A stretch of 64,000 nt of DNA from Gautieria morchelliformis (taxonomy: Eukaryota; Basidiomycota; Agaricomycetes; Gomphales; Gomphaceae): assembly GCA_015179125.1 (NCBI GenBank), contig WHVA01000174.1, positions 124,001-188,000 on the forward strand. The letters are read 5' to 3'. The notes under the pieces were generated by a model. It had not been told where the DNA came from and ran no database searches. It was given only the letters and a program-made list of their open reading frames with translations. This document shows, one piece after another, positions 12,779-54,909 of the stretch; position 1 is the first letter of the stretch, and each line of letters opens with the position of its first letter. The position numbers were made by a program, and so were the translations under genes.

Positions 12779-12907
12779 TGACGCATCCACGCACAACAGC
12801 ACAACACCGCTTTCCTTGACGTCTTCTGGAAGGCTCTCGTCCGACGGGAACCTGACAGCAGTTTTAGAACTCCTTCGAAGATTCAGATTCATGCTGAGGA
12901 TATGCAT
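12779..12907 (-). pseudogene. Possible N-terminal fragment of a viral gene
   Basis: From ATG at 12907 (minus) an open frame of 43 codons runs to the viral/host junction at 12779 and then meets a stop within B sequence. It lies 42 bp after the stop of the neighbouring minus-strand gene, like other spacers in the block. If real, the gene was cut by the integration or deletion event. Function unknown; the call rests on position and frame only. Confidence 0.35.
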
Positions 12908-12949
12908 GGACGGAGACAACAGAGATATGTTCTTGGAGTCCCTGCGAGC

Positions 12950-13561
12950 TTAAGACATGCCGAAGACGCTTAGCATACACTCGAGATGTGTTAAGGACGC
13001 ATACGTCGTGTCCAGAGGAACAGACTCGCCGATGTGATTCTGGGAAAACGTCTCCGAAGACATCTCTTCTAAAACGTTGCCCGGGAAGGGGTCTAGACCG
13101 TCGTTTCCTTGTCTTTCGCCCAGGCCTTTAATTCGGCAGAAGATGTCTCTTGTTCTGTTCCTGAGGTGTGTCCGTACCCATCTTCCAGAGTCTGTGTTCG
13201 AAAGGCTACACAGATACACGGTTCTCCAAAGGGACGCAAACGCCTGGTTGTTTATGCCCTTGATGCTTCGTTCGTCGAGTGTGTATCCGGAGGACGCCAG
13301 CATGAACACGCACATGACGACTGGCGAGACGCTGTTATCGTACTTTACGTCACCTGCGGCTGTGCTCAGCGCTGCGCTCACCTTGGAAGAAAAGAGGGCA
13401 GAGATCTCTTCCTTGTCGTCTATGTACTCCTGAAGAACACACCGGTCTATGACAAGGGTCGAACCCAGCCCACGTGAGACTGTATCCGACCTGACGTACG
13501 CAGCTGAAACGAGAAACCCTTCGGCGATGGTGTCATGTAGTGCATTTACAAGAGTGTTCAT
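12950..13561 (-). CDS. Chimeric viral ORF: helicase N-terminus fused to unknown C-terminus
   Basis: A 203-residue open frame. Residues 1-86 are the same as the first 86 residues of the SF3 helicase at 24448. The match ends exactly at the outer edge of the inverted repeat (13304 here, 24705 in the other arm). The remaining 117 residues are unrelated to the helicase and match nothing I recognise; they contain no ATPase motifs. This is expected where one copy of a gene straddles a repeat/unique boundary. It cannot be an active helicase. The upstream region (13562-13633) is the same as that of the helicase and is then cut by the gypsy insertion, so expression is uncertain. Confidence 0.6.
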   Translation of the reverse strand: MNTLVNALHDTIAEGFLVSAAYVRSDTVSRGLGSTLVIDRCVLQEYIDDKEEISALFSSKVSAALSTAAGDVKYDNSVSPVVMCVFMLASSGYTLDERSIKGINNQAFASLWRTVYLCSLSNTDSGRWVRTHLRNRTRDIFCRIKGLGERQGNDGLDPFPGNVLEEMSSETFSQNHIGESVPLDTTYASLTHLECMLSVFGMS

Positions 13562-13616
13562 GTCTCAGGTGTTCGTTTGTGGTGAGAGCCACTCGTCGGA
13601 GTCCTCCGCTCTCCCG

Positions 13617-13624
13617 TTTTAAAA
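13617..13624. terminator. Palindromic TTTTAAAA (left-arm copy)
   Basis: Mirror copy of the motif at 24385-24392. It is now separated from its upstream gene by the gypsy element inserted at 13634. See the findings for the shared 3'-end motif. Confidence 0.4.
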
Positions 13625-13633
13625 GGCTGAAAC

Positions 13634-14114
13634 TGTAAGGGCAACCCTGGCTAGTTGTGGAGATCACACTACCACACAACTGACAAGGGGAAATCCAAAG
13701 TCTGTATAAATGAACAGAGCATACAAGAGAGGGGATTCTCACCTGACAAGGGGAAATCCAAAGAGAAAAGTCTAAGGACCCCCAATGTCAGCGAGCCCGT
13801 ATTATACTACGCTGCGCAGCCAGGGACAACACTTGGCACCCGCCATCAACCCTGCACCTCCCTGACCCTTGATCGACCCTTGATGTCACCTATTACGCGA
13901 GTCGCTTGATTTCCGACACTGTTCCGAGGGTGGAACTCGGAAATTGGAGTGGAACTGGGAAGGCGAACAGAACTGGTGGAAGTTCTCCCAGAAGCGGAAT
14001 CATTTCCGAGAGCGGAGGCGGAGATGGAATCGGAATCGGAAGCGGAGTCGGAAATGGAGTCGGAACTGGGTGTGGTGTCGGAACTGGAAATGGAAAACAG
14101 GGTGTCCCCTGACA
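13634..14114 (-). repeat. 3' LTR of the full Gyp1 element, 481 bp
   Basis: Reads TGTAAGGGC...CCTGACA on the plus strand. It is 18 bp longer than the partner LTR at 19857-20319 because the TTCCGA-type array has more units. The pol reading frame runs into it and ends at 13846. Confidence 0.93.
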
Positions 14115-15947
14115 TCACCCCCTCTCTAGCGTGCTGCGTCCTCGAAGCACGGGACACGAGGGATTGAAATGCCAACGAGCGGATCCGGCGAGGGGCACCG
14201 GGATGTGTCCTATAGAACTCCCCGAGCTTGTCCGGGGCGGAAACATCTTGCTCCGGGACCCACGAATTCTCTTCGTACCCATACCCTTCCCATTTCACGA
14301 GGAATTGGAGTCGTCCTCGCACAAACCGGCTGTCCAGGATCCGTTCCACCACATAGTGCTCCTCCCCATCTACAATCTCTGGCAGAGGTGGCGGATGAGC
14401 CTTCCGACCTGGAATTGGGTCCTCAAGCATAGGGAGTAACTTCACCACGTTGAAGACGGGGTGGAGGCGGGACATGGACATCGGAAGTCGGAGGCGGTAT
14501 GCATTCCGTCCAACCCTCCGCGTCACTGTGAAGGGCCCAAGGTAGCGGTGGGCAAGCTTCTGTGAAGGGCGTGTGGTGCGGATGTCACTTGCATCTAGAT
14601 ACACCTTGTCTCCAACTTGGTACTCTGGGGCAGGAACCCGGCGTTGGTTGTAGTACCTCGCCATGTCATCCTTGGCCTTTGCAAGGGCCGACTTGGCTTC
14701 CGAAAGGGTGGAGTCCATGCGGTCTCGGAACTCATTGACCGTCTCGAGTCGGGACTCAGCCTGGCGTGGTTCGAAGCCCATCCGCGGGTGTCGTCCGGAG
14801 TCGAGCATGAAGGGAGTCTGTTGTGTGGCGGAATGGACATGGTTGTTGTATTGGAATTCCGCCAGCGGAAGTAATTCATCCCAGTCGTCCTGCCTCTCAT
14901 TGACAAAGAGGCGGAGATATTGCTCCAACTCCTGATTGACCCGTTCCGTCTGTCCGTCACCCTGCGGATGGTACGCCGTGGTGGTAGCTAGCTTTATGCC
15001 GAGCAGGCGGTAGAGCTCCCGAGTCAGTTCCGCGACAAACTGCGGACCTTGGTCGGAAACGACTTGCTTCGGGAGCCCATGCAACTTCCAGACATGGGCA
15101 AGGAACAGGCGGGCCGCTCCGAGGGCTGTGATCGTCGTGTGCGTCGGAATGAAGTGGGACACCTTGCTTACCGAATCCACGACGTTCATGATCGCGTCGT
15201 AGCCATGAGACTCTGGGAGTTCAACAATGAAGTCGACGCTGATGGTGTCCCAGCGGGATTCGGGAATCGGGAGCGGAACAAGTTCTCCGACGGGTGGATG
15301 TCGTTGCGCTTTGGTTCGGAGACAAAGGTCACATGTCTTCACGTACTGTCCAATGTAGCGGGACATCTGAGGCCACCAGTAATTCCGAGCCACTAACTCC
15401 AGCGTCTTCCACCTGCCAGCATGCCCAGCGACCCGTGTGTCATGGTGCTGGGACACGATGCGGCGGCGGAGGTCTGCCCCATCTGGAACGTAGACCTTGC
15501 CTCTGAAGTGGAGCAGCCCATCCCGTTCCGACCATTCCGCTGCCCGTACAGACCGTGAGTGCCCTTTCCGAAGTTCCTCCACCGCCTTCACCACCGACTC
15601 CTCCTTCTCTCCATTCCGATACTGTCTCCGGATGTCCCGGAGCATTTCCGCTTCCGCTCCAACTGCAGTCACTCCTTCTAGGGTGCGGATTGCAAAGAGA
15701 CTTGGGCGGAGCAGTGTCATATCCGCATTGTCTCCGCTTCCGCTTCCATGATCCGCACGGCGGGATAGGGCATCGGGCTTGCCCATGGTGCGGCCGGGGC
15801 GGTGGTGGAGCATGAAGTCAAACCGGGACAGGTGTAGGGACCACCGTGCTTGTCGTCGGTTCAACTTCTTAGACGTGCGGAAATACTCAAGGTTCTTGTG
15901 GTCTGTCCAGATCTCAAATGGGCATAGAGCACCCTCGAGGAAGTGTC
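13846..15947 (-). pseudogene. Gyp1 pol, C-terminal part: RNase H end, integrase, chromodomain
   Basis: Separated from the N-terminal part by the solo LTR at 15948-16415. It carries the RNase H end ([10 protein letters not shown]), the integrase zinc motif ending CDLCL, the catalytic triad Asp (SVDFI), Asp (VVSDQG) and Glu (QTERVNQELE), the C-terminal GDKVYLDAS domain, and a chromodomain with FLVKWEGYGYEENSW. The frame is open from the insertion to inside the 3' LTR (stop at 13846), adding a Ser/Asp-rich tail encoded by U3 repeats. Apart from the solo LTR no stop interrupts it, so the copy was probably active until that insertion. Confidence 0.92.
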
Positions 15948-16415
15948 TGTAAGGGCAACCCTGGCTAGTCGTGGAGATCACACTACCACACAACTGACAA
16001 GGGGAAATCCAAAGCATGTATAAATGAACAGAGCATACAAGAGAGGGGGTTCTCACCTGACAAGGGGAAATCCAAAGAGAAAAGTCTAAGGACCCCCAAT
16101 GTCAGCGAGCCCGTATTATACTACGCTGCGCAGCCAGGGACAACGCTTGGCACCTGCCATCAACCCTGCATCCCCCTGACCCTTGATCGACCCTTGATGC
16201 CACCTATTATGCGAGTCGCTTGATTTCCGACACTGTTCCGGGGCGGAAGTCGGAAATTGGAGTGGAACTGGCAAGGCGAACGGAACTGGTGGAAGTTCTC
16301 CCAGAAGCGGAATCGTTCCCGAAAGCGGATGCGGAGATGGAATCGGAACCGGAAGCGGAGTCGGAACTGGGTGTGGTGTCGGAACTGGAAATGGAAAACA
16401 GGGTGTCCCCTGACA
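15948..16415 (-). repeat. Gyp1 solo LTR nested in Gyp1 pol, 468 bp
   Basis: Flanked by gtgtc at 15943-15947 and 16416-16420. It splits the RNase H region of the host element after the residues EEWRH. It shares several base variants with the solo LTRs at 20392-20871 and 53640-54107 rather than with the host element's LTRs, so it comes from another subfamily copy. Confidence 0.93.
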
Positions 16416-18497
16416 GTGTCGCCACTCCTCCAGCGCTCGGATGATTGCCAGCATCTCCTTGTCATGGATCTCGTAGTTCCGCTCGACCGGACTGAGACTC
16501 TTAGAGAAGAAGGCAATCGGATGCCACCCCCCACCTTCTTCCGATGACTGTTGCGACAAGACCGCTCCGGTAGCTGCGTCGGAAGAGTCCGCCTCCACTC
16601 GGTAAGGACGAGAGTCGTCGGGAAAGATCAGGACCGGGGCGGAAGTGATCAGCTCTTTGAGTTTGTCAAAGGAGGCCCGTTCCGGCTCTCCCCACCGCCA
16701 TCCAACCTCCTTCTTGGTGAGGTCGAAGAGGGCACGGGCGTGGCAGGAGAAGTCCTTGATGAACCGCCGGTAGAAATTGACAAACCCAATGAAGGACTGG
16801 ACTTCCTTCTTGTTCCGCGGCACCGGCCAATCCGACACACCGGAAACCTTGACTGGGTCCATTTCCACCTTTCCTTCCGACACGATCACCCCAAGATACT
16901 CTATCCGCGTCCGTTCAAATTCGCACTTTTCCGGCTTGAGACACAGGTTGTACTCCCGGAGTCGTTCCAGCACTCTCCGCACGACTTCCCGATGTTCGGA
17001 CATTGTTTTTGTGAAGATGAGGATGTCATCGAGGTAGACGCAGACTACCCCTTCTGCTATCATGTCACGGAAAATGTCATTCATCATTGTCTGGAACGTG
17101 GCAGGACTGTTGGTGAGGCCAAAGAACATGACCTGTGGCTCAAAGAGTCCTCGGTTGGTGCGGAATGCGGCCTTCCACTCATCTCCCTCCCGGATCCGGA
17201 CATTATTGAAGCCCCAGCGGACATCCAGCTTGGTGAAGTACTTCGCCCCGCGGAGTTGTGTGATCAATTCGGAAATGAGCGGAATGGGGTACCGGTTCTT
17301 GATCGTGATCGCATTCAAGGCCCGGTAATCCTGCACAAGTCTGAGCGAGCCGTCCTTCTTCTTGATGAAGAACACCGGAGATGCCATGGGTGACTTGGAG
17401 GGGCGGATCCTCCCTGTACGGAGATTTTCCGCAAGGAATGCATCGAGCTCTACCTGCTCCTTGGGTGACAGCGGGTAGACCTTGCAGTTGGTGGGCTTCG
17501 ACCCAGGCTCCAACTCGATGGCATGGTCCCACAGTTTCCGCGGAGGCAGGGCATCAAACGACTCCTTGGAGAAGACGTCCTCAAACTCCCGCAGGTACTC
17601 CGGAATTTCCGCCTCCACTCTATCATACCTCTTAGAGGCTTCAGCAAGGCGTTGTGAAATATTTCCGGTGGCGCGGATGTGTTCCGCCTCCGGCGGAAGG
17701 TTTACGTACAGCAAGCGCTCCCCTTCCGTCAGAGCGTCTTCCAGGCTGAGTCGGATGACGTCGGAATCGGAGTTGGAAGGGGGATCCGGGTCAAATTCCG
17801 CTTCTGAGTCTTCTTCTGCAAGCAGTGGATGGGGGCCGGAACGACATGTCTGTATGAGCCGTTCGGTCTTCCGCTGCTCCTGGTGCTCCTTCCGCACTTC
17901 CGACCGGCACATGTGACACTTGGCTGGACATCGACTCATCAGTACCTTCCGAGGCTGCCAATTGATCTCCGGGTTGTGCTCTTGAAGCCAGGTAAACCCA
18001 AGGATGATGTCTTGCTTCCCCAGGCTGGTGACAGCGAAGGAAGTGCGTTCCGAGTGTCCATCGTAGCGGAGAATTGTGTCCACTATCTCCGTGATGGACC
18101 CTGCCTCATTGGGGCTTCCATCCACATTGAACACCGGGATTGCACGTTGCAACTTCCGCGTGGTCAGTCGGTTCCGTTCCACATAGTCCCGGTCCATAAA
18201 CTGACCAGTGGCCCCGCAATCGACAAGGGCGGGTCCGGATTTGACTTCCGCCGTATCTGTCGTCTGGATCTCTACCTTAATGACTAGTGACTTGGGGCCA
18301 GGGGTGGCAGCAACGACATAGCGCTTCGGAAGGCGTCTCTCCCAAGGGCGGATGCGGGATAGACGGGGTGTCGGATTTGGCTTTTGTGTGACTTTATCCG
18401 GTGGGTCTGTATGAAGTGAGGGGAGTCGGGGCTTTTCATTCTCTACTTCAAGACAGGCAAACCGGTTATGTACAGGCAGCAGGGGCACACATCTCAC
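16416..18497 (-). pseudogene. Gyp1 pol, N-terminal part: protease, RT, RNase H start
   Basis: The frame opens at GTG 18497, overlapping the gag stop in the -1 frame, so pol is probably made by -1 frameshifting or re-initiation. The protease active site is Asp93-Cys-Gly rather than DSG or DTG. An Asp/Ser/Glu-rich linker follows. RT shows FFIKKKDGSLR, FTKLDVRWGF, MFFGLTNSP and catalytic YLDD near residue 486, then the tether and RNase H (RVEADSSDAATGAVL). The frame is intact up to the solo LTR at 16415. Without the LTR the reading would continue at 15942. Confidence 0.93.
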
Positions 18498-19669
18498 CCG
18501 CTGCGCGTCACAAAATCCGACGCATCTTTCGCTTCCGATGCGCCATGTTCCGCATTTTCGGAAACTCCTTCCGCAGTAAGCACTCCGCTTATGTCCGCAA
18601 GTGCGAGGAACTCTGGAAGGAGCTCGAGTTTCTCCTCTGTGGTCATAAGCCGGATGTCAAATGCTTGGGGGCACTCGCGGGCATAGTGGCCTGGTTGTTG
18701 ACATCGGAAGCAGGTGATAGTTCCGCGGCCTTTTCCGCGCATGCGGTCAACATCCATCGGGGCAGGGCCACTCTTCGAGGGAGGAGGGCTATGGTTCCTA
18801 ATAGGAGCAGGCGGAGAAAGCGTCGGAAATACTTGCCGCATGGGAATGAATGCGCTTCCGGATTTTGGCACAGGTGGAGTAGGACGAGTGGAACTGCGCG
18901 TCATATTCCGGCTCGTCTCCACGAAGGCCTCATTTGCTTCCCTGTTCCGGGACACCCTCTGTGCAGCTTGGTACCACCCTTCCGGGTCATCAAAGTCCGG
19001 AGCTCCATCCCCAAGCAGCGCAACTTGGTTCTGGAGTGTCGGATCGAGTCCTCGTCGGAATTTGATGACGATCGTCTTGTCGTCATCATACTCCGCAAGG
19101 TCGATGAGCTCCTGGAAGCGATCGATATAGTCATCGATCGGATCCTTGGCCTGGTACCAGCTGGCCCCCTCGAGCTTCGTAAGGGCTGTGAGCTGCTCAT
19201 TTTTTGGGCAGAACTGGTCGGAAAATGTTTTCTCGAAGGCGTCCCAGTCTCGGAAGTAGTTCCCCTTGCCCTTTGCTTCATGTCGGATCACCTTGTTTGC
19301 AAAACGGGATGCGCGGTCCGACTTGAAAAAGGACAATGCCCAGTGAATCCGGGCCTGGTCGTTCGGAAAGAGGTCTCCGACAATTGCGAAGTAGATGCTG
19401 CATGTGTTGAAGAATGCGCGTCCCTTCTCCCGATCTCCGTCAAAGTCCGCCGGAGTTGCGGGTTTGACCTTTGCTAACTTCGCGGACTTTCTCTCCTCCG
19501 CTAGTTCCGCTTTTCCGAAATCCGGATCATCCAACATTTCATTTCCACCACCTTGTGGAATATCTAACTTAGCCAAAATCGCTTGTAAGGCTGTTTCAAT
19601 CGCGTCGGTCTTCATCCGGTTCCGTGTCAATTCCTCCTCCATATTCCGAAGACGATCGTCCGGATCCAT
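18494..19669 (-). CDS. Gyp1 gag polyprotein
   Basis: The first ATG in frame is at 19669 (MDPDDRLRN); the open frame itself continues back to the LTR edge at about 19857, so a longer non-ATG form cannot be excluded. From ATG it is 391 residues: a coiled-coil-like start (RLRNMEEELTRNRM), a retrotransposon gag domain (WALSFFKSDRA, WDAFEKTFSDQF, YIDRFQELIDLAEY), a Pro/Ser-rich linker and a CCHC zinc knuckle (CFRCQQPGHYAREC). It packages element RNA in cytoplasmic particles. The frame is undamaged. Confidence 0.9.
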   Translation of the reverse strand: MDPDDRLRNMEEELTRNRMKTDAIETALQAILAKLDIPQGGGNEMLDDPDFGKAELAEERKSAKLAKVKPATPADFDGDREKGRAFFNTCSIYFAIVGDLFPNDQARIHWALSFFKSDRASRFANKVIRHEAKGKGNYFRDWDAFEKTFSDQFCPKNEQLTALTKLEGASWYQAKDPIDDYIDRFQELIDLAEYDDDKTIVIKFRRGLDPTLQNQVALLGDGAPDFDDPEGWYQAAQRVSRNREANEAFVETSRNMTRSSTRPTPPVPKSGSAFIPMRQVFPTLSPPAPIRNHSPPPSKSGPAPMDVDRMRGKGRGTITCFRCQQPGHYARECPQAFDIRLMTTEEKLELLPEFLALADISGVLTAEGVSENAEHGASEAKDASDFVTRSG

Positions 19670-19856
19670 GTCGGAAGGAGAAATGTGGGACGGGATTTCC
19701 GGGGTTGGGAGCTCGACGTAAGAAGAAGGGCTGTCGTACGCTGTGTGTGCGGAAGAGGTTGCGATCTCCGAGTCGCTGTCTCCGATTCCGAACGCACCTA
19801 TGGCGGCTGCGACACGCAGTACGACCGCCGGTCCTCTATGGGAGAGACTTTTCTGC

Positions 19857-20319
19857 TGTAAGGGCAACCCTGGCTAGTTGTGGAGATCACACTACCACAC
19901 AACTGACAAGGGGAAATCCAAAGTCTGTATAAATGAACAGAGCATACAAGAGAGGGGATTCTCACCTGACAAGGGGAAATCCAAAGAGAAAAGTCTAAGG
20001 ACCCCCAATGTCAGCGAGCCCGTATTATACTACGCTGCGCAGCCAGGGACAACACTTGGCACCCGCCATCAACCCTGCACCTCCCTGACCCTTGATCGAC
20101 CCTTGATGTCACCTATTACGCGAGTCGCTTGATTTCCGACACTGTTCCGAGGGTGGAACTCGGAAATTGGAGTGGAACTGGGAAGGCGAACAGAACTGGT
20201 GGAAGTTCTCCCAGAAGCGGAATCATTTCCGAGAGCGGAGGCGGAGATGGAATCGGAATCGGAAGCGGAGTCGGAAATGGAGTCGGAACTGGAAATGGAA
20301 AACAGGGTGTCCCCTGACA
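19857..20319 (-). repeat. 5' LTR of the full Gyp1 element, 463 bp
   Basis: Same ends as the 3' LTR. It carries the element promoter, with TATAATA on the minus strand near 20030. The sequence after it (GCAGAAAAGTCTC, minus) would be the primer site; it does not match a tRNA end that I recognise. Confidence 0.92.
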
Positions 20320-20340
20320 GAAACAGGCTTGCATGAGTGC

Positions 20341-21767
20341 TCAGAAGCAAAGGGCCTTGATGGCGTTGACGTTCGCGGCTTTGGCGTCGTGTGTAAGGGC
20401 AACCCTGGCTAGTCGTGGAGATCACACTACCACACAACTGACAAGGGGAAATCCAAAGTATGTATAAATGAACAGAGCATACAAGAGAGGGGGTTCTCAC
20501 CTGACAAGGGGAAATCCAAAGAGAAAAGTCTAAGGACCCCCAATGTCAGCGAGCCCGTATTATACTACGCTGCGCAGCCAGGGACAACGCTTGGCACCCG
20601 CCATCAACCCTGCATCCCCCTGACCCTTGATCGACCCTTGATGCCACCTATTATGCGAGTCGCTTGATTTCCGACACTGTTCCGGGGCGGAAGTCGGAAA
20701 TTGGAGTGGAACTGGCAAGGCGAACGGAACTGGTGGAAGTTCTCCCAGAAGCGGAATCGTTCCCGAAAGCGGATGCGGAGATGGAATCGGAACCGGAAGC
20801 GGAGTCGGAAATGGAGTCGGAACTGGGTGTGGTGTCGGAACTGGAAATGGAAAACAGGGTGTCCCCTGACATCGTGTGTGTTTAGAACCCATGCTCTGTG
20901 CTGATAAAGGGTCAGCGCCTCTCCGTACATGTTTTTCCCCTGGCGGTCTCTCCCTTCGCATAGGTACGAGTCGCTCCCAACAACGACAAAAGAACGATAC
21001 GTCTTGAGGCTCTTGGTTATGGCCGCCATGTACTCGCTCCTCTGGGACGCAAGCATCTCCACGACAGCAACACACACTTCGAAGTACCACGCCGTGTTAA
21101 CGGTACCCTTGTTCAGCTTCCGTTCCTTGACACTCTGTGCTCTCATGAATCTGCACAGCTCTACCACATTCATACACGCAACCGTCTTCATGTCGGTGTC
21201 GTCGTATATGCACCATGCTATGAGATTCAGAGGTCTTATGAAAACCACACCTTTCAGCGTGAGGCTCATAAGCCACGTGAGGCTCAAGGGATCCATGTCA
21301 AGGGATGTCACCTTGTCTGCGTGGATGTGTGCCCTTGGGATCTCTCCGTTGTAAACCGGAAGCGGCTCGTCTTCGTTCGTCTTTCTGTTAGGCGTGAATA
21401 TCTGTTGCATGAAGCCCTTGAGCGGCGACACACTCAACGACGGCATGTTCTTCGGTGCAACGGTCTGAAGGCTTGGTGAAGGCGAGAACCCCCTGACCTT
21501 GTTGGTTCGTATGGCTTGCGCAAGGTTCATGGTGCCAAGGTACGCGGTGTTCGGGTCCATTATGTTGGACATCCACAACGACGCCTTGTCGGATCCGGCT
21601 TGGCTAAGCCTTTCGAAGCCAACCTCAGGGGACCTTAGGAAGCCTTCGTCTGAGCTCTTCGTCGAATCAGAGGGGCTTATTATCCTGATGCCGGGGATCT
21701 CCCTCTGGGATGCGTTGGTCACCGTTCGCATGGATCTCTCTGAAATGCTTCCAGCGTAGTTGCTCAT
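20341..21767 (-). pseudogene. Left-arm copy of the viral 313-residue gene, split by a solo LTR
   Basis: Starts at ATG 21767 and matches the intact copy at 23418-24359 residue for residue apart from one Thr/Met difference. A Gyp1 solo LTR (20392-20871, TSD tcgtg) interrupts it 17 codons before the stop (TGA at 20341-20343). Without the LTR the frame would be complete. As it stands, translation would run on into LTR sequence. Function unknown; see the intact copy. Confidence 0.9.
20392..20871 (-). repeat. Gyp1 solo LTR in a viral gene, 480 bp
   Basis: TGTAAGGGC...CCTGACA flanked by tcgtg at 20387-20391 and 20872-20876. It is one of three post-integration retroelement insertions in the viral block. 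Confidence 0.95.
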
Positions 21768-21831
21768 TATGTGTATCGCTGAACTGACAGGTGTTCGAAA
21801 GCAAGCCTGCTTGCCGTACACACCTCAAAGG
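21768..21831. promoter_or_regulatory. 64-bp divergent promoter region between viral genes
   Basis: Separates the start of the left 313-residue gene (ATG 21767, minus) from the 315-residue gene (ATG 21832, plus). It contains GACAGGTG at 21786-21793, the reverse of the CACCTG motif found near other starts in the block. The whole spacer lies inside the inverted repeat, so the right arm (23354-23417) has an identical promoter. Confidence 0.55.
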
Positions 21832-22779
21832 ATGTCTCAGCAAAACGAAGCCTTTCCCTTGTCCAAGCTCATCGGCACCAACTCGATACACAGCCTGCTG
21901 TCGAGCATGGCGTCCCAGCTGACGAGCATAGACTCTAAGCTGAACACCCTCAGCCAGGACATGGACGACATGAGGCGCGTCATGGCAAGCATAGAAGAAC
22001 GCACGCAGAACATGCAAAGTGTCTCAAGGGCATCATACGACGAGTCTGCAGACCACATTACGCCGAAAACCGCAAGCATGTCTCTGGTGTCCTCTGTCTC
22101 TTCCGTGGAGAAAAACACCGTAGGTCGAACAACGTACTCGTCGAATCCCAGCTACAAGGGGTCCAGCGCAAACACGTACGCGGCAATGGCATCTGTCGTC
22201 GTTATGCAGCTGCTGGAGTTTGTCAGTCCCAAGGTCTTCCCCAACGACGTGAATCTTATTGTGTGCAGCTTCCAAGACATGCAGACGTTGGTAAGGGCTG
22301 TCCTCCAAAGGCCGAACATGACAACGTACACGGAGGTGTTCAAAGCAACCAAAGACAAGGAATCCCTTAGGCAGCTTCAAAGCATCCTCTGCGCTGCGAA
22401 CGAGTCTCAAACGACACCGACGGCCAACGCGTTTACGTTTGTGCAGATTCAGCAGTCAGGCATGGCGAAATACCTCAAGGCAGCCCTCAACATTATGTGT
22501 ATCATACGAAGGCTCAACAGAACCCTTGAGCGCCGGATGCTGGAGACACTCAGATGCGTAGAGAACATAGGATGGCCTTTGTTCAACGAGTCTGGGGAGT
22601 TTAACAAGACCCTGGCCGTGTATACGAGCGCACAGCCTCAGGCCCAGGCCGTGGATTGGTATTACACGCAGTATCGAAGCCTCAAGGCAAACAAAAAGAC
22701 CGCTGTCGTGGAGTCTCTGCTAGACCTGAACCACGAGGTCACGTCCGAAGACTGGCTCAGGATGTCCTCTGGCAAATGA
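21832..22779 (+). CDS. Viral protein of unknown function, N-terminal coiled coil (315 aa)
   Basis: Start chosen at MSQQNEAF: upstream in-frame codons overlap the divergent promoter and the neighbouring gene. Codons 1-8 lie in the inverted repeat; the rest is single copy. Residues ~15-60 form a likely coiled coil (heptads in SMASQLTSIDSKLNTLSQDM), residues ~60-110 are Ser/Thr-rich and probably disordered, and the rest is a mixed, mainly helical domain (TYAAMASVVVMQLLEFVS, YLKAALNIMCIIRRLNRTLERRML). No transmembrane segment or enzyme motif is obvious. TTTTAAAA follows the stop by 33 bp. A structural or scaffold role is possible but unproven. Confidence 0.75.
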   Translation: MSQQNEAFPLSKLIGTNSIHSLLSSMASQLTSIDSKLNTLSQDMDDMRRVMASIEERTQNMQSVSRASYDESADHITPKTASMSLVSSVSSVEKNTVGRTTYSSNPSYKGSSANTYAAMASVVVMQLLEFVSPKVFPNDVNLIVCSFQDMQTLVRAVLQRPNMTTYTEVFKATKDKESLRQLQSILCAANESQTTPTANAFTFVQIQQSGMAKYLKAALNIMCIIRRLNRTLERRMLETLRCVENIGWPLFNESGEFNKTLAVYTSAQPQAQAVDWYYTQYRSLKANKKTAVVESLLDLNHEVTSEDWLRMSSGK

Positions 22780-22812
22780 TGCTGCCGAACACACACACAC
22801 ACATACGTGCGT

Positions 22813-22820
22813 TTTTAAAA
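22813..22820. terminator. Palindromic TTTTAAAA between convergent viral genes
   Basis: Lies 33 bp after the stop of the 315-residue gene and 45 bp after that of the possible minus-strand gene ending at 22866. Candidate bidirectional 3'-end signal. Confidence 0.45.
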
Positions 22821-22865
22821 GAGCTCTTGGAAACCGTTACACGGGTGCTCTGCTACGCATGTGCT

Positions 22866-23240
22866 TTAACGAGACTGACAAACTTGTGGTCCTGGTCCGG
22901 CGTCCAACCAACAGTCATAACCGTCACCTCGGCAAGATGCGCGTAGACGTTTCCGAACACACCCGAGAGGCGGGGGAACGGTGTCCTTTCTGTATGCCAT
23001 GACAAGGACCTCTGCAAGCTTGCTCACGTTTGCGATGCTGGCATATGTCGCCGCTGCCCTGAGAACCGCTTTGCTGGCACGTGGCATAGAAGCCGCTTCC
23101 GTTTTCGTCGGCGAGGGTGTTATCCCGAACGACTGCACATCGGCGGCTTTCGGCAAAGGGGACTCCGCTTTTGGCATGAGGGCCGTCGGTACAGAGCGTG
23201 CAGGCTCCGGAGCTGGAGACACAGACGAGGGCATGGGCAT
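22866..23240 (-). CDS. Possible viral gene, C-terminal part, at the inner repeat edge
   Basis: Open from ATG 23240 for 124 codons. The frame is also open upstream into the repeat arm, where no ATG exists, so the true start is unclear. The first half is Pro/Ser/Ala-rich and likely disordered; then a helical stretch (AAATYASIANVSKLAEVLV) resembles TYAAMASVVVMQLLEFV in the 315-residue protein on the other side of the core. Codon choice resembles that of neighbouring viral genes. An opposite-strand frame (22981-23418) is the main alternative reading. Confidence 0.4.
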   Translation of the reverse strand: MPMPSSVSPAPEPARSVPTALMPKAESPLPKAADVQSFGITPSPTKTEAASMPRASKAVLRAAATYASIANVSKLAEVLVMAYRKDTVPPPLGCVRKRLRASCRGDGYDCWLDAGPGPQVCQSR

Positions 23241-23391
23241 TATACGGAATATCTCCGTTGGCGTGGACGTGGACTCGACGACCCGGTTTGATGAGCCGCT
23301 TGTATTAAGGGCTTTGAATGCTTCGAAGGAAAGGCTTCGTTTTGCTGAGACATCCTTTGAGGTGTGTACGGCAAGCAGGCTTGCTTTCGAA

Positions 23392-23399
23392 CACCTGTC
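23392..23399 (+). promoter_or_regulatory. CACCTG motif upstream of the 313-residue gene
   Basis: CACCTGTC, 18 bp before the ATG at 23418 and preceded by CGAA. The same ten bases CGAACACCTG occur just before the helicase start. Confidence 0.4.
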
Positions 23400-23417
23400 A
23401 GTTCAGCGATACACATA

Positions 23418-24359
23418 ATGAGCAACTACGCCGGAAGCATTTCAGAGAGATCCATGCGAACGGTGACCAACGCATCCCAGAGGGAGATCCCCGGCATCAG
23501 GATAATAAGCCCCTCTGATTCGACGAAGAGCTCAGATGAAGGCTTCCTAAGGTCCCCTGAGGTTGGCTTCGAAAGGCTTAGCCAAGCCGGATCCGACAAG
23601 GCGTCGTTGTGGATGTCCAACATAACGGACCCGAACACCGCGTACCTTGGCACCATGAACCTTGCGCAAGCCATACGAACCAACAAGGTCAGGGGGTTCT
23701 CGCCTTCACCAAGCCTTCAGACCGTTGCACCGAAGAACATGCCGTCGTTGAGTGTGTCGCCGCTCAAGGGCTTCATGCAACAGATATTCACGCCTAACAG
23801 AAAGACGAACGAAGACGAGCCGCTTCCGGTTTACAACGGAGAGATCCCAAGGGCACACATCCACGCAGACAAGGTGACATCCCTTGACATGGATCCCTTG
23901 AGCCTCACGTGGCTTATGAGCCTCACGCTGAAAGGTGTGGTTTTCATAAGACCTCTGAATCTCATAGCATGGTGCATATACGACGACACCGACATGAAGA
24001 CGGTTGCGTGTATGAATGTGGTAGAGCTGTGCAGATTCATGAGAGCACAGAGTGTCAAGGAACGGAAGCTGAACAAGGGTACCGTTAACACGGCGTGGTA
24101 CTTCGAAGTGTGTGTTGCTGTCGTGGAGATGCTTGCGTCCCAGAGGAGCGAGTACATGGCGGCCATAACCAAGAGCCTCAAGACGTATCGTTCTTTTGTC
24201 GTTGTTGGGAGCGACTCGTACCTATGCGAAGGGAGAGACCGCCAGGGGAAAAACATGTACGGAGAGGCGCTGACCCTTTATCAGCACAGAGCATGGGTTC
24301 TAAACACACACGACGCCAAAGCCGCGAACGTCAACGCCATCAAGGCCCTTTGCTTCTGA
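23418..24359 (+). CDS. Viral protein of unknown function (313 aa), intact copy
   Basis: Start at MSNYAGS, the first ATG after the divergent promoter. The N-terminal ~130 residues are Ser/Pro-rich and probably flexible; the rest looks folded (LTWLMSLTLKGVVFIRPLNL, NTAWYFEVCVAVVEMLASQR). No known motif was identified. It is in tandem with the helicase gene (88-bp spacer), and TTTTAAAA lies 25 bp after the stop. It is duplicated in the inverted repeat, so the parental virus carried two copies, which often marks highly expressed or boundary genes. The other copy is broken by a solo LTR. Confidence 0.8.
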   Translation: MSNYAGSISERSMRTVTNASQREIPGIRIISPSDSTKSSDEGFLRSPEVGFERLSQAGSDKASLWMSNITDPNTAYLGTMNLAQAIRTNKVRGFSPSPSLQTVAPKNMPSLSVSPLKGFMQQIFTPNRKTNEDEPLPVYNGEIPRAHIHADKVTSLDMDPLSLTWLMSLTLKGVVFIRPLNLIAWCIYDDTDMKTVACMNVVELCRFMRAQSVKERKLNKGTVNTAWYFEVCVAVVEMLASQRSEYMAAITKSLKTYRSFVVVGSDSYLCEGRDRQGKNMYGEALTLYQHRAWVLNTHDAKAANVNAIKALCF

Positions 24360-24384
24360 GCACTCATGCAAGCCTGTTTCAGCC

Positions 24385-24392
24385 TTTTAAAA
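24385..24392. terminator. Palindromic TTTTAAAA after the 313-residue gene
   Basis: 25 bp downstream of the stop at 24359 and 55 bp before the helicase start. Candidate 3'-end signal, less likely a promoter element of the helicase. Confidence 0.45.
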
Positions 24393-24437
24393 CGGGAGAG
24401 CGGAGGACTCCGACGAGTGGCTCTCACCACAAACGAA

Positions 24438-24445
24438 CACCTGAG
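24438..24445 (+). promoter_or_regulatory. CACCTGAG motif just before the helicase start
   Basis: Only two bases separate it from the ATG at 24448. It shares CGAACACCTG with the 313-residue gene promoter. An almost identical CCTCAGGTG (reverse) precedes the gene at 29276. Confidence 0.4.
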
Positions 24446-24447
24446 AC

Positions 24448-25902
24448 ATGAACACTCTTGTAAATGCACTACATGACACCATCGCCGAAGGGTTTCTCGT
24501 TTCAGCTGCGTACGTCAGGTCGGATACAGTCTCACGTGGGCTGGGTTCGACCCTTGTCATAGACCGGTGTGTTCTTCAGGAGTACATAGACGACAAGGAA
24601 GAGATCTCTGCCCTCTTTTCTTCCAAGGTGAGCGCAGCGCTGAGCACAGCCGCAGGTGACGTAAAGTACGATAACAGCGTCTCGCCAGTCGTCATGTGCG
24701 TGTTCTCATACGAAGCACAAAACACATCCGCTGAGCAGGAAGACGCCGAGGAGACGGTGTACAGCGCAGACGGAGAGGCAAGCTTCGTTGTAATCGATGA
24801 TGACGTATGTGAGACCATAGAAGACACACAGACCCTGCGACTACAACGAAACATCGTGGCCAAAGGAGGTTTGTGTTGTGTTAAGGGCATAACCATTGTG
24901 TACGTCCCTACGGTTCGCCGATGGTTTCACATAGCAAGCGTAGCCGGCATGAAGTACATCGCCACGGTGATAGGGGCAGAGAACGCAACCATGAACTTCC
25001 AAACGGCAGCCGCGCCCTTCATGAACTACCTCATCCAGAGCTCGACCGCGTACCTGTGTGATCTGCTTCCTGCTAGCGTGTGCGTGTCCTCGGGAAGGTA
25101 TCAGCTAGAGACCACGGACAGGGGTGTCGCACGCTTCGTTGAGCAGACCGGGCTTGCACCCAAGGCTTCCTGGGGAACGAGAAGCACAGGGCTATGCCTT
25201 ATGCCGGTTTCATGCCGTATACGTCCCAAAGAGGTAAAGAGCAATGTTGCGAGTCCCGTGATGAGCTTCATCGGAAAAATGCTGGATTGCAAGGAAGACC
25301 TCCTAACGTTCATGTGGGTTTTGGGAACGGCTCTCCTGGATCCCGTCGTCCGTTCCAAGGGTGTACTCCTTTACGGACCCGGCGGCACAGGGAAGTCCAC
25401 GCTCATCAAGCTCGTTCGCCAATGCTTAGGAGAGTGTACAACGGTTATCCCTTCGAACGCTTTGGAAGGCCGCCGTCCCCTTAGCGACCACGTGAAGATC
25501 GCAGCATGCTCGAACCGGATCCTTCTGTGTCCCGAGGCCAACATCACAATGGACTTCAACATTGCAAACTTCAAGGCGCTGTGTGGCCTGGACATCGTCG
25601 CGAGCGAGTACATCCCTATGATAAGCGTGTGCTCCCTGATTCTGGCATGCAATTACCTTCCGGACCCGAAGAGACACGCGGAGTGGTACACAACAGCCTT
25701 CAGCCGCCATGCCATCGTGATACCCATGTACTTCCGGGTTGCCGAACATGTCTCCGCGTTTAGCAGCATCATGCTAGAGGAGCTGGACAAGATGACTTTT
25801 GTGACGCAGTGCATCCTTGTGGCGAACAAGTATAACCAAGCGCCGAACTGCATACGGACGCTCCTTCTCACGATCATGGGAGAGCTCTTCGCCAAGGTCT
25901 GA
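24448..25902 (+). CDS. D5-like superfamily 3 replicative helicase (484 aa)
   Basis: SF3 helicases are hexameric AAA+-type motors that unwind viral DNA at the fork. The motifs are clear: Walker A GPGGTGKST (residues 310-318), Walker B region RILLCPEANI with Glu363, a KALCGLDIVASE segment equivalent to the K-x-LTGGD-x-I-x-A-R/E stretch of D5-type helicases, motif C SLILACNYLPD with Asn402, and an arginine finger candidate Arg420 in SRHAIVIP. The ~300 residues before Walker A are not recognised. They could hold a primase-like or D5_N-like domain, though the protein is much shorter than the usual ~800-residue NCLDV primase-helicases. The frame is intact. The first 86 codons lie in the inverted repeat. 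Confidence 0.88.
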   Translation: MNTLVNALHDTIAEGFLVSAAYVRSDTVSRGLGSTLVIDRCVLQEYIDDKEEISALFSSKVSAALSTAAGDVKYDNSVSPVVMCVFSYEAQNTSAEQEDAEETVYSADGEASFVVIDDDVCETIEDTQTLRLQRNIVAKGGLCCVKGITIVYVPTVRRWFHIASVAGMKYIATVIGAENATMNFQTAAAPFMNYLIQSSTAYLCDLLPASVCVSSGRYQLETTDRGVARFVEQTGLAPKASWGTRSTGLCLMPVSCRIRPKEVKSNVASPVMSFIGKMLDCKEDLLTFMWVLGTALLDPVVRSKGVLLYGPGGTGKSTLIKLVRQCLGECTTVIPSNALEGRRPLSDHVKIAACSNRILLCPEANITMDFNIANFKALCGLDIVASEYIPMISVCSLILACNYLPDPKRHAEWYTTAFSRHAIVIPMYFRVAEHVSAFSSIMLEELDKMTFVTQCILVANKYNQAPNCIRTLLLTIMGELFAKV

Positions 25903-25945
25903 GGACCACGTTCACATAGACAAGTCTTCGGCCGCTCTCCGTGCT

Positions 25946-26911
25946 ATGTCATGCAGCACGCTCTCTTTGGCACAGATGTTAGATGGAAGAACGACGTCTC
26001 TCTTCTCAGAAGCCTCAGGGATGAAGGAGCGCCTCACGAAAGAGTTTGTACGACGACACACAGACCCTTCTGTCATGGATGGCTTCGTTGCGGAGTGCTT
26101 AAGGGGCATGCGAGACATAGGACTCCAGCAAACCTCTCAAGGGGACATAGGCGCCATGACACGGGAGGCCCGCCTCTATGCCAGCTGCTTTGGTGTCGAG
26201 GAAGAGGGCGCGCTCTTCGTGGCTACGTCAGATGGAAGAGAGCGCCTTCTGTTCTCGGTTCCGGACACCAGGGGACACCCATGCCTCCGTGCTGTTGCCC
26301 TTCTTGCCTCAGGAACTCAGCAGGAGGCCTTGGATGCGCACAAACCGAAACCGGGTGAGCTGGAGAGTTCCCTTCGCGCCGCCAAGTACAACATGGTCTC
26401 GTACATGTTCAGAGGAAAGGCCGAAGGATGTCTCTTGATGTTGACCTCAGCGCCGACGGTTAGCACTACGTGGGAGTACCAGGAGTCCGAAGCGTCTTGG
26501 TATTGCATCGTAGAGGAAAGCAGCCTTCGCTATGTCAACGTGTACTCCGTGTCCGGTACCTGCACACCTTTTATCCTAGGGGCCATGAAGCGGAAGGGCA
26601 TGGATTTCACAGCAGCTGCACACGCGTACGTTGCCATGGCCCTTCGGTATCACAACAAACAGCTTTCCGAGGCCGAGATGACGTCCATGGTTGCTATGAT
26701 GCTCTACAAATGCGAAACCTGCTCGGAGTTCCCGTTCACCAAGCAAGGCATGTTGGAACGACGCATGCGATGGTCCCCCACGCTTCACGCAAACCACTTC
26801 AGACTCCTGAGGAAAGCCCTCCCCGACGAAGACACCCAAGGGCCTCCGCATAAGGCTGAAACCCTCAACGAGCACTACACCATGTTTATGAAGGATGCCA
26901 CGTATAGCTGA
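25946..26911 (+). CDS. Viral protein of unknown function (321 aa)
   Basis: Start chosen at MSCSTLSLAQML, 43 bp after the helicase stop; earlier in-frame codons overlap the helicase gene in another frame. The protein is mixed alpha/beta with no signal peptide or membrane segment. A Cys pair in YKCETCSEF near residue 270 could bind a metal, but no full zinc motif is visible. It is probably co-transcribed with the helicase. TTTTAAAA lies 28 bp after its stop. The frame is undamaged. Confidence 0.78.
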   Translation: MSCSTLSLAQMLDGRTTSLFSEASGMKERLTKEFVRRHTDPSVMDGFVAECLRGMRDIGLQQTSQGDIGAMTREARLYASCFGVEEEGALFVATSDGRERLLFSVPDTRGHPCLRAVALLASGTQQEALDAHKPKPGELESSLRAAKYNMVSYMFRGKAEGCLLMLTSAPTVSTTWEYQESEASWYCIVEESSLRYVNVYSVSGTCTPFILGAMKRKGMDFTAAAHAYVAMALRYHNKQLSEAEMTSMVAMMLYKCETCSEFPFTKQGMLERRMRWSPTLHANHFRLLRKALPDEDTQGPPHKAETLNEHYTMFMKDATYS

Positions 26912-26939
26912 GGCCGGACGCGTGCACGAGACCCTCTTG

Positions 26940-26947
26940 TTTTAAAA
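26940..26947. terminator. Palindromic TTTTAAAA between convergent viral genes
   Basis: 28 bp after the stop of the 321-residue gene (plus) and 22 bp after the stop of the polymerase gene (minus, 26970). A symmetric motif here fits a shared 3'-end signal. Confidence 0.5.
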
Positions 26948-26969
26948 CGACGTACCTCCGCATCAGGCG

Positions 26970-28445
26970 CTACCAAAGCTTGTTCAAACCGGGTATGTAG
27001 TACCTCTCTATGAGGGAACGAACGTCTATCATGAGAGCCGGCTCTATCAAAGACGTGAACGCTTTCGTGAGGGCCTCGACGACAACATACGGCCTATAAA
27101 CGACCATGGTTTGCGTGTCCATGTGATCGCAGTCTGCTTGTATCTCCTTGGATCGTTCGTCTATGTACACGTACCTGAGAGAACCCCCTACACGCAGCTG
27201 TTTAGAGACAAGCCAGACCGGCAGCCGAAGACCCTTTCGCGGTGTACATCCCATCTGAGCAAGGTTTATGGATGTTGGGTGCATTTATGCTCCTGCACCA
27301 AAATCAAGCATAATATATTCAATTTATTGTGTGGTGTTTCAATATTTTCTCATACTGTTCTTGTACCATGCATCCATTTCTCTGCTTATTTTCGAAATTT
27401 TCCAGTCACTCTCTATCTCTCCATTTTATTCTGTTATTTCTACTTTCACAGGCAGCTGCACCCAGCGGAGTTTGAAAGGACTTCGACGCGCGAGCCCTTG
27501 GGCGCTAAAGGGCCGGGTGCAAGTATATGCCTTCTGAGACAGGATTACACTCCTCTCTCAGTGACAATAAATTCACTGAGAGAGGCGAGTAGTATTCTTC
27601 ATATTTACATAGCATGTTGACTGAAAATCATGTAGTATATTTGATTCTAGGTATTGTATTAATACATCAGTGTGACAATAAATTCACTGAGAGAGTATAT
27701 TTGATTCTAGCTTTCTAAGAACTCTACCGAACCTTCCCTGCCATAGCCCCTAGTTGCTAACAATGGATTCCACGACGACGGACGCCACCATGGCAAGGTG
27801 CTCTTCCTTGCTTTTGTATGTCCTGAGGAGAACAGGTATAAGAGTCTCGACCGACCAGCGTACCATGCCAAGCCTGTCCATGCGTCTGCTGGAGATGCCC
27901 CGACATACAAGAGAGCCATCGACAAGGATTCCACAGTACATCTTTTTCTTCATCAGCAGCAGAGACTTAAACGTTTCATTCTTGCTGGTCTCCATGCTCA
28001 TCCTCCCAAACGGCGTAAACCTTAGGACTTCCCCTAAGACGAAGAGCCCATCCGATATCCGGCTCTCCGGTGTGCATCCCTTGGCAAGCCTCCGTCCCGG
28101 TCCAACGAAGCATGAGTCCGTGTCCCCTCCGAGAACCCTTAAGCCCAAAACATGGAAGACGCATTCTGCAAACGTTATCAGCCATCTTCCGATTCCTGTT
28201 ATGGAAGAAGCACATCGAGGACTGTACAAACGAGAGCCGGAGAACCCAAGGGTCCCGTACAGACTGTTGGTAAGGATCTTCAGAGCGAGGGAGTACGTCG
28301 GGTTGGTCTTCTTCACGGCACATCGCGTGTTTATCAAAAACCGAAGGAGGTGCGCTGTGTCGACGTCATCCTTTCGCTCGAAGAGGGCCGCCTCTCTGCT
28401 GTATTGATATATCACGCATGTGTCAGTCCACGTGACGGTTTTTTT
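26970..28445 (-). pseudogene. Family B DNA polymerase, C-terminal part, split by a copia solo LTR
   Basis: The minus-strand frame is open from 28445 and shows polymerase motif B (K-x3-N-S-x-Y-G in KILTNSLYG, 28254-28280) and motif C (GGDTDS, 28113-28130; YGDTDS in most family members), followed by a thumb-like region with conserved lysines. The exonuclease domain and motif A are missing: the frame begins at a stop in a 9-T run at 28439-28447. A copia solo LTR (27273-27762) splits the gene, but the frame reads straight across its 5-bp target duplication to the stop at 26970. The KxxxNSxYG form and helicase neighbour favour a viral replicative enzyme over a linear-plasmid polymerase, but the subgroup cannot be placed by eye. 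Confidence 0.85.
27273..27762 (-). repeat. Copia solo LTR in the viral polymerase gene, 490 bp
   Basis: Reads TGTTGGGTGC...TTGCTAACA and is the reverse of the copia LTRs at 46224 and 50982. It is flanked by atgga at 27268-27272 and 27763-27767. Confidence 0.95.
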
Positions 28446-28500
28446 TTAGAAAGAACAACACACGAATGCTAATGTACATGGAGAACACCGGAGACTCCCT
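28439..28500. other. T9 run and spacer at the polymerase truncation point
   Basis: The polymerase frame is lost at a run of nine T (28439-28447), followed by 52 bp before the next viral gene's stop. Either a rearrangement fused two viral segments here, or the A-rich minus-strand sequence is a normal 3' signal of the 237-residue gene and the polymerase N-terminus was lost by deletion. Confidence 0.4.
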
Positions 28501-29214
28501 TCACGAGACCTGCAGACTGAGAGCATCGAGCCGCTGCGCCAGATCAGACGTAGTGTCGGAGGTCTTCTGTACCACGGGTGTCGGCGTGGTTTCGGGGACG
28601 TCCATGGCATGTATCTTGGGGATCGGCCCCGCCCCTTTGCGGATGATAGCGCACACCTGCAACGTAGCCGAGAACGAGCTCAGGTCGTCCTTCTTGTTTG
28701 TGGCCGCTTTGATGTTGAGGAGAACCTCGCATGACATGGGCTCTTTGCAGAAGCTGAACAGGCCTCCCACGCCGATGTTCTTGACGACGCCTTTGCTGGT
28801 GTAAGTACACCGGATTGCGCTGGCCTTTTTGACGTTCACCTGGAACCAGCAGTTTGTGTCGTCCTGGTGTCCGAAGCGAATCCCGAGGCCGAGTCCGTTT
28901 ACCATTGCATTGAAGGACGTCTTCGAAACCCCGACCGTGAACACGTACGCATCCATGCCCTCTCCGGGTTTCCCGAAGTCCGTGGAGCCGTGCGCAGAGA
29001 GGATCGCCGTGCAAAAGGCGTAGCTGGTCTTCTTCTTCGTGGCGGGGTCCGTGAGGTATATGAGCCGGTACGAGTTTGTGGAGCCGTAGTCTTGGACATG
29101 CCCAAGGGACGGGGAGAACACCGAGGGAGACGTGGCCGTTTCAGAGGAGACCCTGATGTAGCCGCCGCCCTTGGGATCGGAGATGAAAGCGGGATGAGAT
29201 AAAGCACGAGACAT
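28501..29214 (-). CDS. Viral protein of unknown function (237 aa)
   Basis: Start at MSRALSHPAF (29214); earlier in-frame codons lie in the divergent promoter. It looks like a compact beta-rich domain (residues ~15-190: SYRLIYLTDP, YVFTVGVSKTSF, CWFQVNVKKASAIRCTY, CEVLLNIKAATNKK), then a Pro/Thr linker and a short C-terminal coiled coil (LAQRLDALSLQV). The shape would suit a single-stranded DNA-binding or processivity factor beside polymerase and helicase genes, but that is a guess from composition. It is divergent from the gene at 29276. The frame is intact. Confidence 0.75.
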   Translation of the reverse strand: MSRALSHPAFISDPKGGGYIRVSSETATSPSVFSPSLGHVQDYGSTNSYRLIYLTDPATKKKTSYAFCTAILSAHGSTDFGKPGEGMDAYVFTVGVSKTSFNAMVNGLGLGIRFGHQDDTNCWFQVNVKKASAIRCTYTSKGVVKNIGVGGLFSFCKEPMSCEVLLNIKAATNKKDDLSSFSATLQVCAIIRKGAGPIPKIHAMDVPETTPTPVVQKTSDTTSDLAQRLDALSLQVS

Positions 29215-29275
29215 GACAAAGATGCACGCAGTGGCACGCGCCACACCAACACACACACACGCAGACCTCAGGTGA
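29215..29275. promoter_or_regulatory. 61-bp divergent promoter with CCTCAGGTG
   Basis: Separates ATG 29214 (minus) from ATG 29276 (plus). It contains a CA-dinucleotide run at about 29248-29260 and CTCAGGTG at 29267-29274, the reverse complement of the CACCTGAG found before the helicase. Confidence 0.5.
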
Positions 29276-29821
29276 ATGAAACCCATCAACGTGCACTATA
29301 GATCCTGGGGTGGAGACTTGAGAAAGAACGTGTCAAAGTCCTTCCGTAATCAGCCAGGCGGGAAAACGGAAGCGGATGAGCCCGTTGACATAGACCGGTA
29401 CTACACGCTCGTTCCTCCGGTGCATGCGGACTCCTTCAGGGCACATCTGACGAGTATGCTTGTTTACGCGCTGACAGGAAGCCCTTACAAAGCCGCCGGA
29501 GTATCCCGCAGGCTACACATAATGGACGTGTGGACGAGCGAGAGCTTTGTCATGACGGTCTCCGTGCTGACGCCCGTCGTCGCTTCGTGTACAATAGACT
29601 TGGAGAACGGAGCTGGTGTCACGGCTGAGGCCCTGTCTGAGTCATGCGAGTCCATGATGAACGAGTACTCGGACACCAGCTTCAAGGCGTCCTTCAAGGA
29701 GCTCAAGGCAAACCGTTTACGTGTCATAGGAAAGCTTGCCCCTGACGCATTGGATGGTTTGCTTCCAGCACGAGCAGCGAATAGCTTTCGGAGAAATGCG
29801 AGGAAGGGCGAACAGAGATGA
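29276..29821 (+). pseudogene. Viral gene of unknown function, 3' end lost at the integration edge
   Basis: About 165 residues are viral (29276-29770). The frame then continues for 16 codons in family B repeat sequence to a stop at 29819-29821. It begins MKPINVHYRSWGG; a mixed domain follows (YYTLVPPVHADSFRAHL, SFVMTVSVLTPVVASC). No motif was recognised. The chimeric end shows that the viral block was cut inside a gene, so more viral genome once lay beyond. Confidence 0.7.
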
Positions 29822-30125
29822 CATAGGGGAGAAGTGGCGAAAGGGGAAATGGGGATAACAAGATCCAGGAAATACACAAGTCATGACAGTGCGATCATAG
29901 GAACACCATCGAAAGAGGGTCGAGCAGAGGAGGTGATAGGCCCAGCGATGACTGCCAAGTCAGTCCAAGGACGTCGATCGTGTGTTGATGGCATGCTATG
30001 GTGAGTGGCATGAACAGTGAAGATCGGTTGCCGAACAGGGCAAGGGCGATCGGAGCGAACACGGAAATGGAGTGAGAAATGGGAGGATAGAATATGCAAG
30101 TATGGGAAATAAACGCGTCATGACA

Positions 30126-54618: not shown

Positions 54619-54909
54619 TCTAAAAGTGAAACGCGCTCAGTGGGTTGTGGGCGTCGAGGCTGACAATTAATATTACAAATAATATTACATAATAATTAGG
54701 TCAGCGGAGCGAGCGGCGCAGCCGCGAGCCTAGGCCCAGGCCCAGCCCAGACCAACCGGTCTCTGGGGCTTGCCGGTACAGTGCTGGCTGACCTGGCAGA
54801 CGCTGCGCAGCCGGTCCCCTCTGCCCTCCTTCTACCATCATCCCATCCCATCCCATCCCTCCCACCACCTGCATCTCTTCTATTAACATCCTATCTAGGT
54901 TCTTTCTGG

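Follow-up and report, generated by a model that had tools for sequence, protein, structure and literature searches.

The family B polymerase of Polintons, of Polinton-like viruses and of the linear plasmids of fungi, all of them DNA elements, is protein-primed, and D5-like superfamily 3 (SF3) primase/helicases are found in mycobacteriophages. According to a 2023 paper, no double-stranded DNA (dsDNA) virus infecting fungi was known, and the hints cited there come from basal fungi and from a habitat rich in Ascomycota (PMC10640383). The same paper describes a giant endogenous viral element of Rhizophagus irregularis (Glomeromycotina), which is 1.5 Mb long, asfarvirus-related and has no major capsid protein homologue (PMC10640383), and another paper links Nucleocytoviricota in oceanic crustal fluids, represented by free virions and giant-virus genomes, to Ascomycota (PMC9894930). 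No report of such a dsDNA virus in Basidiomycota was found in the open-access literature (subscription papers and preprints lay outside the scope). Here we analysed the window, a stretch of 64,000 nucleotides on contig C198 of the 122-Mb Gautieria morchelliformis assembly, in which a block of foreign DNA is embedded. We consider it probable that this block is the fossil of an autonomous dsDNA element, most likely a virus, with its own SF3 helicase and PF00136 polymerase. It resembles the Rhizophagus element in bringing what appear to be dsDNA virus genes into a fungal genome without a major capsid protein homologue, and differs from it in its size of about 9.3 kb, its place in Basidiomycota and its lack of an assignable relative (PMC10640383). 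With the crustal-fluid viruses it would share a presumed fungal host, which in their case is not a basidiomycete (PMC9894930).

A sequence-only reading of this DNA had proposed that about 9.3 kb of foreign genes, including a helicase and a family B polymerase, sit inside host retroelement DNA, and this was borne out. The foreign block spans 12780-29770, of which about 9,320 bp are foreign once three host long terminal repeat (LTR) insertions are subtracted. Its edges are real and were placed at 12779/12780 and 29770/29771, where the block interrupts a single copy of a host repeat; several further copies of the repeat are present in the window and also on contig C349. Each of the three LTR insertions has a 5-bp target-site duplication, and that of the Ty3 element is recent, since its two LTRs show no mismatch over 481 aligned columns (one gap). 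With host repeat on either side and later LTR insertions, the block has the form of an endogenous viral element in the broad sense.

The block contains an SF3-type helicase, a broken family B polymerase and seven orphan frames. As had been proposed, only the helicase and the polymerase are recognisable, since the remaining frames gave no confident Pfam match. The helicase frame (24448-25902) matched PHROG primase/helicase profiles with a best E value of 2.2e-10, while DUF5906 was matched at E 1.3e-4, weaker than Pfam's own cut-off; reading by eye gave what we take to be a Walker A and later SF3-type motifs. Mycobacteriophage D5-like primase/helicases match its residues 218-433 at 25-27%, but the window protein has no recognised primase domain and no other phage gene is present in the block. 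The frame is identical to part of a public predicted protein of G. morchelliformis. It may be noted that public gene models P0001 and P0004 join neighbouring foreign genes through supposed introns (helicase with the gene at 25946, and the gene at 28501 with the polymerase piece).

The polymerase frame (27750-28445) matched PF00136 with E 8.8e-18 as against 0.25 for PF03175. Its exonuclease motif and motif A are missing in the window and present elsewhere in the genome, on C152 (presumably an exonuclease-III-like motif and motif A, as read by eye) and on C162 (presumably motif A); a larger genome therefore once existed, as the sequence-only reading had held, and the inserted unit is taken as a defective form, not the whole genome, because its polymerase is truncated. 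The only close relative found outside the Gautieria genome is P0003, a 274-aa polymerase fragment on a 971-bp ENA contig, which is 55% identical to the window polymerase along 165 aa that include motifs B and C, so the lineage of the element probably reaches beyond Gautieria. A polymerase phylogeny had been proposed as a check, and in a tree built by a short search from 29 rows (the window row being filled to 37%, and giant-virus, mirusvirus or herpes-like references not included) the window joins P0003 with a Shimodaira-Hasegawa-like approximate likelihood ratio support of 99, but the pair has no firm neighbour. Polymerase scans of IMG/VR gave 4 and 25 loci at 26-49%, and among PDB chains the best reached 45 bits, those that we take to be herpes polymerases about 30.

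Pieces of the same element were found on eight other contigs (C948 in two places, C270, C1048, C371, C349, C342, C152 and C162), and more distantly related pieces of the helicase or the polymerase on C47, C1103 and C504, the copies being studied in stretches of 1-29 kb around genome-search matches. The matched pieces measure about 30-1,230 bp and are joined differently at each locus, and no two loci have common termini. Among 513 differences between window and copies, 100, 71 and 342 fall on codon positions 1, 2 and 3, respectively (17 comparisons on six contigs, 12 of the 29 rows having been omitted as second arms, overlaps or very short). The ratio of nonsynonymous to synonymous substitution (dN/dS) is at most 0.31 in 26 of the 32 usable window-copy ratios; the table behind it has 39 rows, 7 of them without a ratio (saturated; one is a host gene) and 3 with one stop codon each, and some rows are two arms of one repeat. 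Since a transition excess by itself lowers dN/dS, neutral evolution with the same kind of excess was simulated (300 runs for each of three genes), which gave means of 0.66-0.68 and minima of 0.24-0.38. This codon constraint shows that the foreign frames are genes and not products of chance. The position-3 excess together with the low dN/dS also indicates that the divergence mostly arose in replicating, functional genomes. That dead copies were multiplied by the host was rejected on the codon pattern; how such copies look is seen in the pair C152/C160, where the differences (14/19/16 over the codon positions) show no constraint, as expected for copies made after capture, although this stretch may be foreign or transposon. 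Because synonymous distances between window and copies range from 0.07 to saturation, the sequences point to the capture of several related strains rather than one event. The fragment proposed in the sequence-only reading is therefore real, but it is one of several.

In the window, two inverted arms of about 1.38 kb, 99.7-100% alike, flank a segment of 1,470 bp. Similar fold-back repeats occur in the copies, with arms identical over 1,349 bp on C948 and over 187 bp on C270, and 99% alike over 301 bp on C349. Several genes had been thought to be cut at the edges of the block; a gene is indeed cut at both edges, but the two cut ends are halves of one gene. The C371 frame that matches 29276-29770 has 324 codons, and its last 58 are found at window 12780-12950 on the same strand. 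C1048 and C371 share an ungapped alignment of 1,006 bp (90.5% identity) in which the two ends of the window block are separated by 245 bp. The inserted molecule would therefore correspond to almost a complete circle of about 9.6 kb, or to a single unit of a tandem array of that length, which suggests a circular or tandem replication form. The insertion site lacks 32-34 bp of host repeat that the other copies keep, and no target-site duplication is present. On these two grounds, capture by end joining, not transposition, appears to be the mechanism. An internal joint on C349 has a 6-bp overlap, as in microhomology joining; at the remaining printed joints no clear case of microhomology was seen by eye.

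These observations are consistent with the following course of events. The element would infect Gautieria or its ancestors and replicate with its own helicase and polymerase, yielding circles or head-to-tail molecules as well as fold-back forms, some of them defective. A molecule of about 9.6 kb, whose polymerase gene had already lost its N-terminal half, would have broken inside one gene and been sealed by end joining into a break in the host repeat, and host LTR elements would have inserted into the captured piece afterwards. Repeated captures of related strains would make the genome an archive of a long association.

Within the limits of the searches no close match to fungal chromosomal genes, to a known plasmid or to a bacterial contaminant was obtained. 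No relative in other fungi was present among the candidates scored; scoring was confined to the 8000 candidates sharing most words, so a remote relative of the helicase could have escaped notice. In IMG/VR neither the helicase nor any of four orphan proteins had a relative, and no PDB sequence matched three window proteins or the C1103 protein at better than E 0.9. For the gene at 28501, AlphaFold2 from the single sequence gave a mean predicted local distance difference test score of 35.4. The element acts as the replication module of a dsDNA virus would. Its polymerase is of the non-protein-primed type (PF00136) seen in Nucleocytoviricota, and the SF3 part of its helicase matches primase-helicase profiles, with DUF5906 below the cut-off and no primase domain; membership in Nucleocytoviricota is not shown by this. 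In the host genome the double-jelly-roll capsid profile PF16903 had 0 matches, with controls equally silent, and the A32-type packaging ATPase profile PF04665 also had 0, with controls positive in 2 of 14; the element being incomplete, Nucleocytoviricota are not thereby excluded.

The endogenised, undescribed dsDNA virus of the sequence-only reading thus holds as a dsDNA replicon in a higher fungus, which is well supported, but since no capsid gene was recognised we only infer a virus rather than a plasmid. Several results weigh against a virus fossil. The block yielded no recognisable capsid, packaging ATPase or protease gene, and neither Pfam nor PHROGs revealed any virion gene, an absence that is not established as seven frames have no assignment. 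No free or complete form of the element is known, and the gene order rests on few joints because nearly all copies are short and shuffled. The omitted comparison of the gene at 28501 with C371 (3/8/4, mostly ahead of the inner start codon) runs opposite to the trend, and 6 of the 32 ratios exceed 0.31 (0.36, 0.37, 0.72, 2.18, 2.18 and 4.06), the three highest coming from a non-coding stretch before the start codon of the gene at 25946. Also, active transposons likewise show codon constraint between copies. The missing capsid and packaging genes would suit a capsid-less extrachromosomal replicon, a nuclear or cytoplasmic plasmid captured in the same way, and the small circle-like unit with inverted repeats recalls the yeast 2-micron plasmid. 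We hold such a plasmid to be unlikely, as the truncated polymerase makes the unit only part of a genome whose capsid genes may lie elsewhere, and no fungal plasmid that combines an SF3 helicase with a PF00136-type polymerase is known to us. Fungal linear plasmids in particular were rejected, their polymerase being of the protein-primed PF03175 type and both ends of the block lying inside one gene.

Several copies in one genome, constraint between them and a location among transposons would also be expected if a self-synthesising DNA transposon, either Polinton-like or of a new type, had multiplied in Gautieria. The lack of termini common to any two loci, the deletion without target-site duplication at the window junction, the permuted block, the absence of an integrase or transposase among its own frames and a polymerase of PF00136 and not PF03175 type make this very improbable. 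Membership in Polintons or Polinton-like viruses was rejected on the polymerase type, the lack of a retroviral-type integrase and the junction. Phage or bacterial DNA, as contamination or from a phage of an endobacterium, deserves hardly any credence: the nearest IMG/VR polymerases do include L053 and L056, on contigs with terminase or virion genes, and mycobacteriophages are the best matches of the helicase in the phage collection, but these matches reach only about 25-31%, P0003 had no match among 50,697 phage records, the foreign DNA lies on several contigs and is interrupted by host LTRs that carry target-site duplications, and inspection by eye of eleven starts showed no Shine-Dalgarno-like stretch ahead of them. 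The genome does duplicate DNA of this sort, as the unconstrained C152/C160 pair demonstrates. Yet ordinary chromosomal genes duplicated by transposon activity would not explain codon constraint between copies that are all broken, the candidates scored included no relative in other fungi, and the host polymerase-alpha-like gene on C524 (judged by eye) is only 30% identical to the element polymerase; we give this explanation practically no credence.

About 22-34 bp past the stop codons of four genes, with one site common to two of them, lies the palindromic octamer TTTTAAAA, which is also present in the copies. Against an expectation of 0.33 for the whole window, five matches occur there, four of them in foreign DNA. 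The host loci studied, 209.7 kb in all, have 10 matches, of which 9 are within or beside foreign pieces; the octamer may be a transcription-end signal. Homology of the helicase stops exactly at 25899, followed by four different continuations at three loci, and 24705 is one shared start that leads into two different genes. No common motif was seen at these two breakpoints, and cDNA splice sites were rejected, as intergenic DNA is retained too. The feature coordinates are collected in Table 1. The frame at 20604-21767 (-) is the inverted second copy of the 23418-24359 gene, with LTR making up its part beyond 20872, and a plus-strand frame at 27763-28407 was rejected as a gene, being antisense of the polymerase.

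Table 1. Features of the foreign block, its host flanks and matching copies (window positions unless a locus is given).
Feature	Position	Strand	Remarks
Left host flank	12481..12779	.	host repeat; aligns to other window copies up to their 7741 / 284 / 2997
Edge-cut gene, end part, last 58 codons	12780..12950	+	tblastn with C371 frame L031:7420-8391, 96.6% over 58 aa
203-aa frame	12950..13561	-	first 87 aa common with helicase frame via inverted repeat; dN/dS 0.12-0.23
Inverted-repeat arm A, outer part	13304..13633	-	100% to 24376-24705
Host Ty3/chromodomain LTR element	13634..20319	-	inserted in foreign DNA; target-site duplication GAAAC
Inverted-repeat arm A, middle piece	20320..20391	-	between two LTR insertions
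Host solo LTR	20392..20871	.	target-site duplication TCGTG
Inverted-repeat arm A, inner part	20872..21857	-	99.7% to 23328-24313; holds second copy of 23418 gene
Orphan gene, 336 aa	21769..22779	+	coiled-coil-like N-terminus; constrained against C948, dN/dS 0.05-0.21
Orphan frame, 139 aa	22999..23418	+	overlaps arm B at its end; under constraint relative to C948, dN/dS 0.24
Inverted-repeat arm B	23328..24705	+	sequence match to arm A
Orphan gene, 313 aa, in both arms	23418..24359	+	constrained, dN/dS 0.05-0.14
SF3-type (D5-like) helicase, 484 aa	24448..25902	+	profile matches, motifs; homology to copies stops exactly at 25899
Orphan gene, 321 aa	25946..26911	+	open reading frame; compared with copies
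Family B polymerase, C-terminal part	26970..27272	-	continuation beyond solo LTR 27273-27762
Host copia solo LTR splitting polymerase	27273..27762	.	target-site duplication ATGGA
Family B polymerase piece, motifs B and C	27763..28445	-	PF00136; N-terminal half absent
Orphan gene, 261 aa	28501..29286	-	238 aa from inner start 29214; compared with copies
Edge-cut gene, first part	29276..29770	+	cut by right block edge; frame continues to 29821 in host repeat
Right host flank	29771..30000	.	same host repeat as left flank, resumes 32-34 bp further on
Octamer TTTTAAAA	13617, 22813, 24385, 26940		shortly after stop codons of foreign genes
Octamer TTTTAAAA in copies	L030:4853, L031:6751, L033:5002/5582/6328, L038:8860, L051:1287/2601, L027:8539
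Repeated breakpoints	25899, 24705; L027:8338; L029:6701, 6202; L030:5172; L031:7073		identical to the base

Other loci gave side observations. The diverged locus on C47 (L034:6268-9998) has a helicase piece at 31-37% and two frames, of 325 aa and 585 aa; the word GWSPNDLDI in the latter is presumably nucleotidyltransferase-like, and its relatives at 44-61% on C160, C537, C891, C145 and C149 make it perhaps a host family. A third lineage on C1103 (L036:9116-9523 and L037:2-1357, both on the minus strand) has a piece of the helicase at about 40%, together with a frame of 452 aa that ends in polymerase motif C and is partly repeated on C504 (L052) in another arrangement; the words KADG and DGSLV of this frame resemble those of mRNA capping enzymes, but such an identity is not claimed, as Pfam and PDB gave no support. 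On C152, DNA beside the polymerase piece (L041:3467-4426) recurs on C160 (L078), C1070, C1003, C493, C593, C980, C733 and C405 and may be part of a transposon that carried foreign DNA along. In the window itself, tandem repeats of 144 bp and 30 bp (54808-57084) precede a Helitron-like frame (57136-60186).

What is new here is the presence of multiple related copies with constraint, a permuted circle-like unit and a junction of the end-joining type. We see an even chance that they represent a new high-rank lineage of dsDNA viruses of mushroom-forming fungi, replicating as circular or concatemeric molecules prone to recombination and associated with its host for long enough that strains at saturated synonymous distance came to be archived in one genome, which would be the first in Dikarya. 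With the genes, polymerase pieces and junctions as probes, fruiting bodies can be screened for living relatives, and the successive captures document the entry of such DNA into fungal chromosomes.

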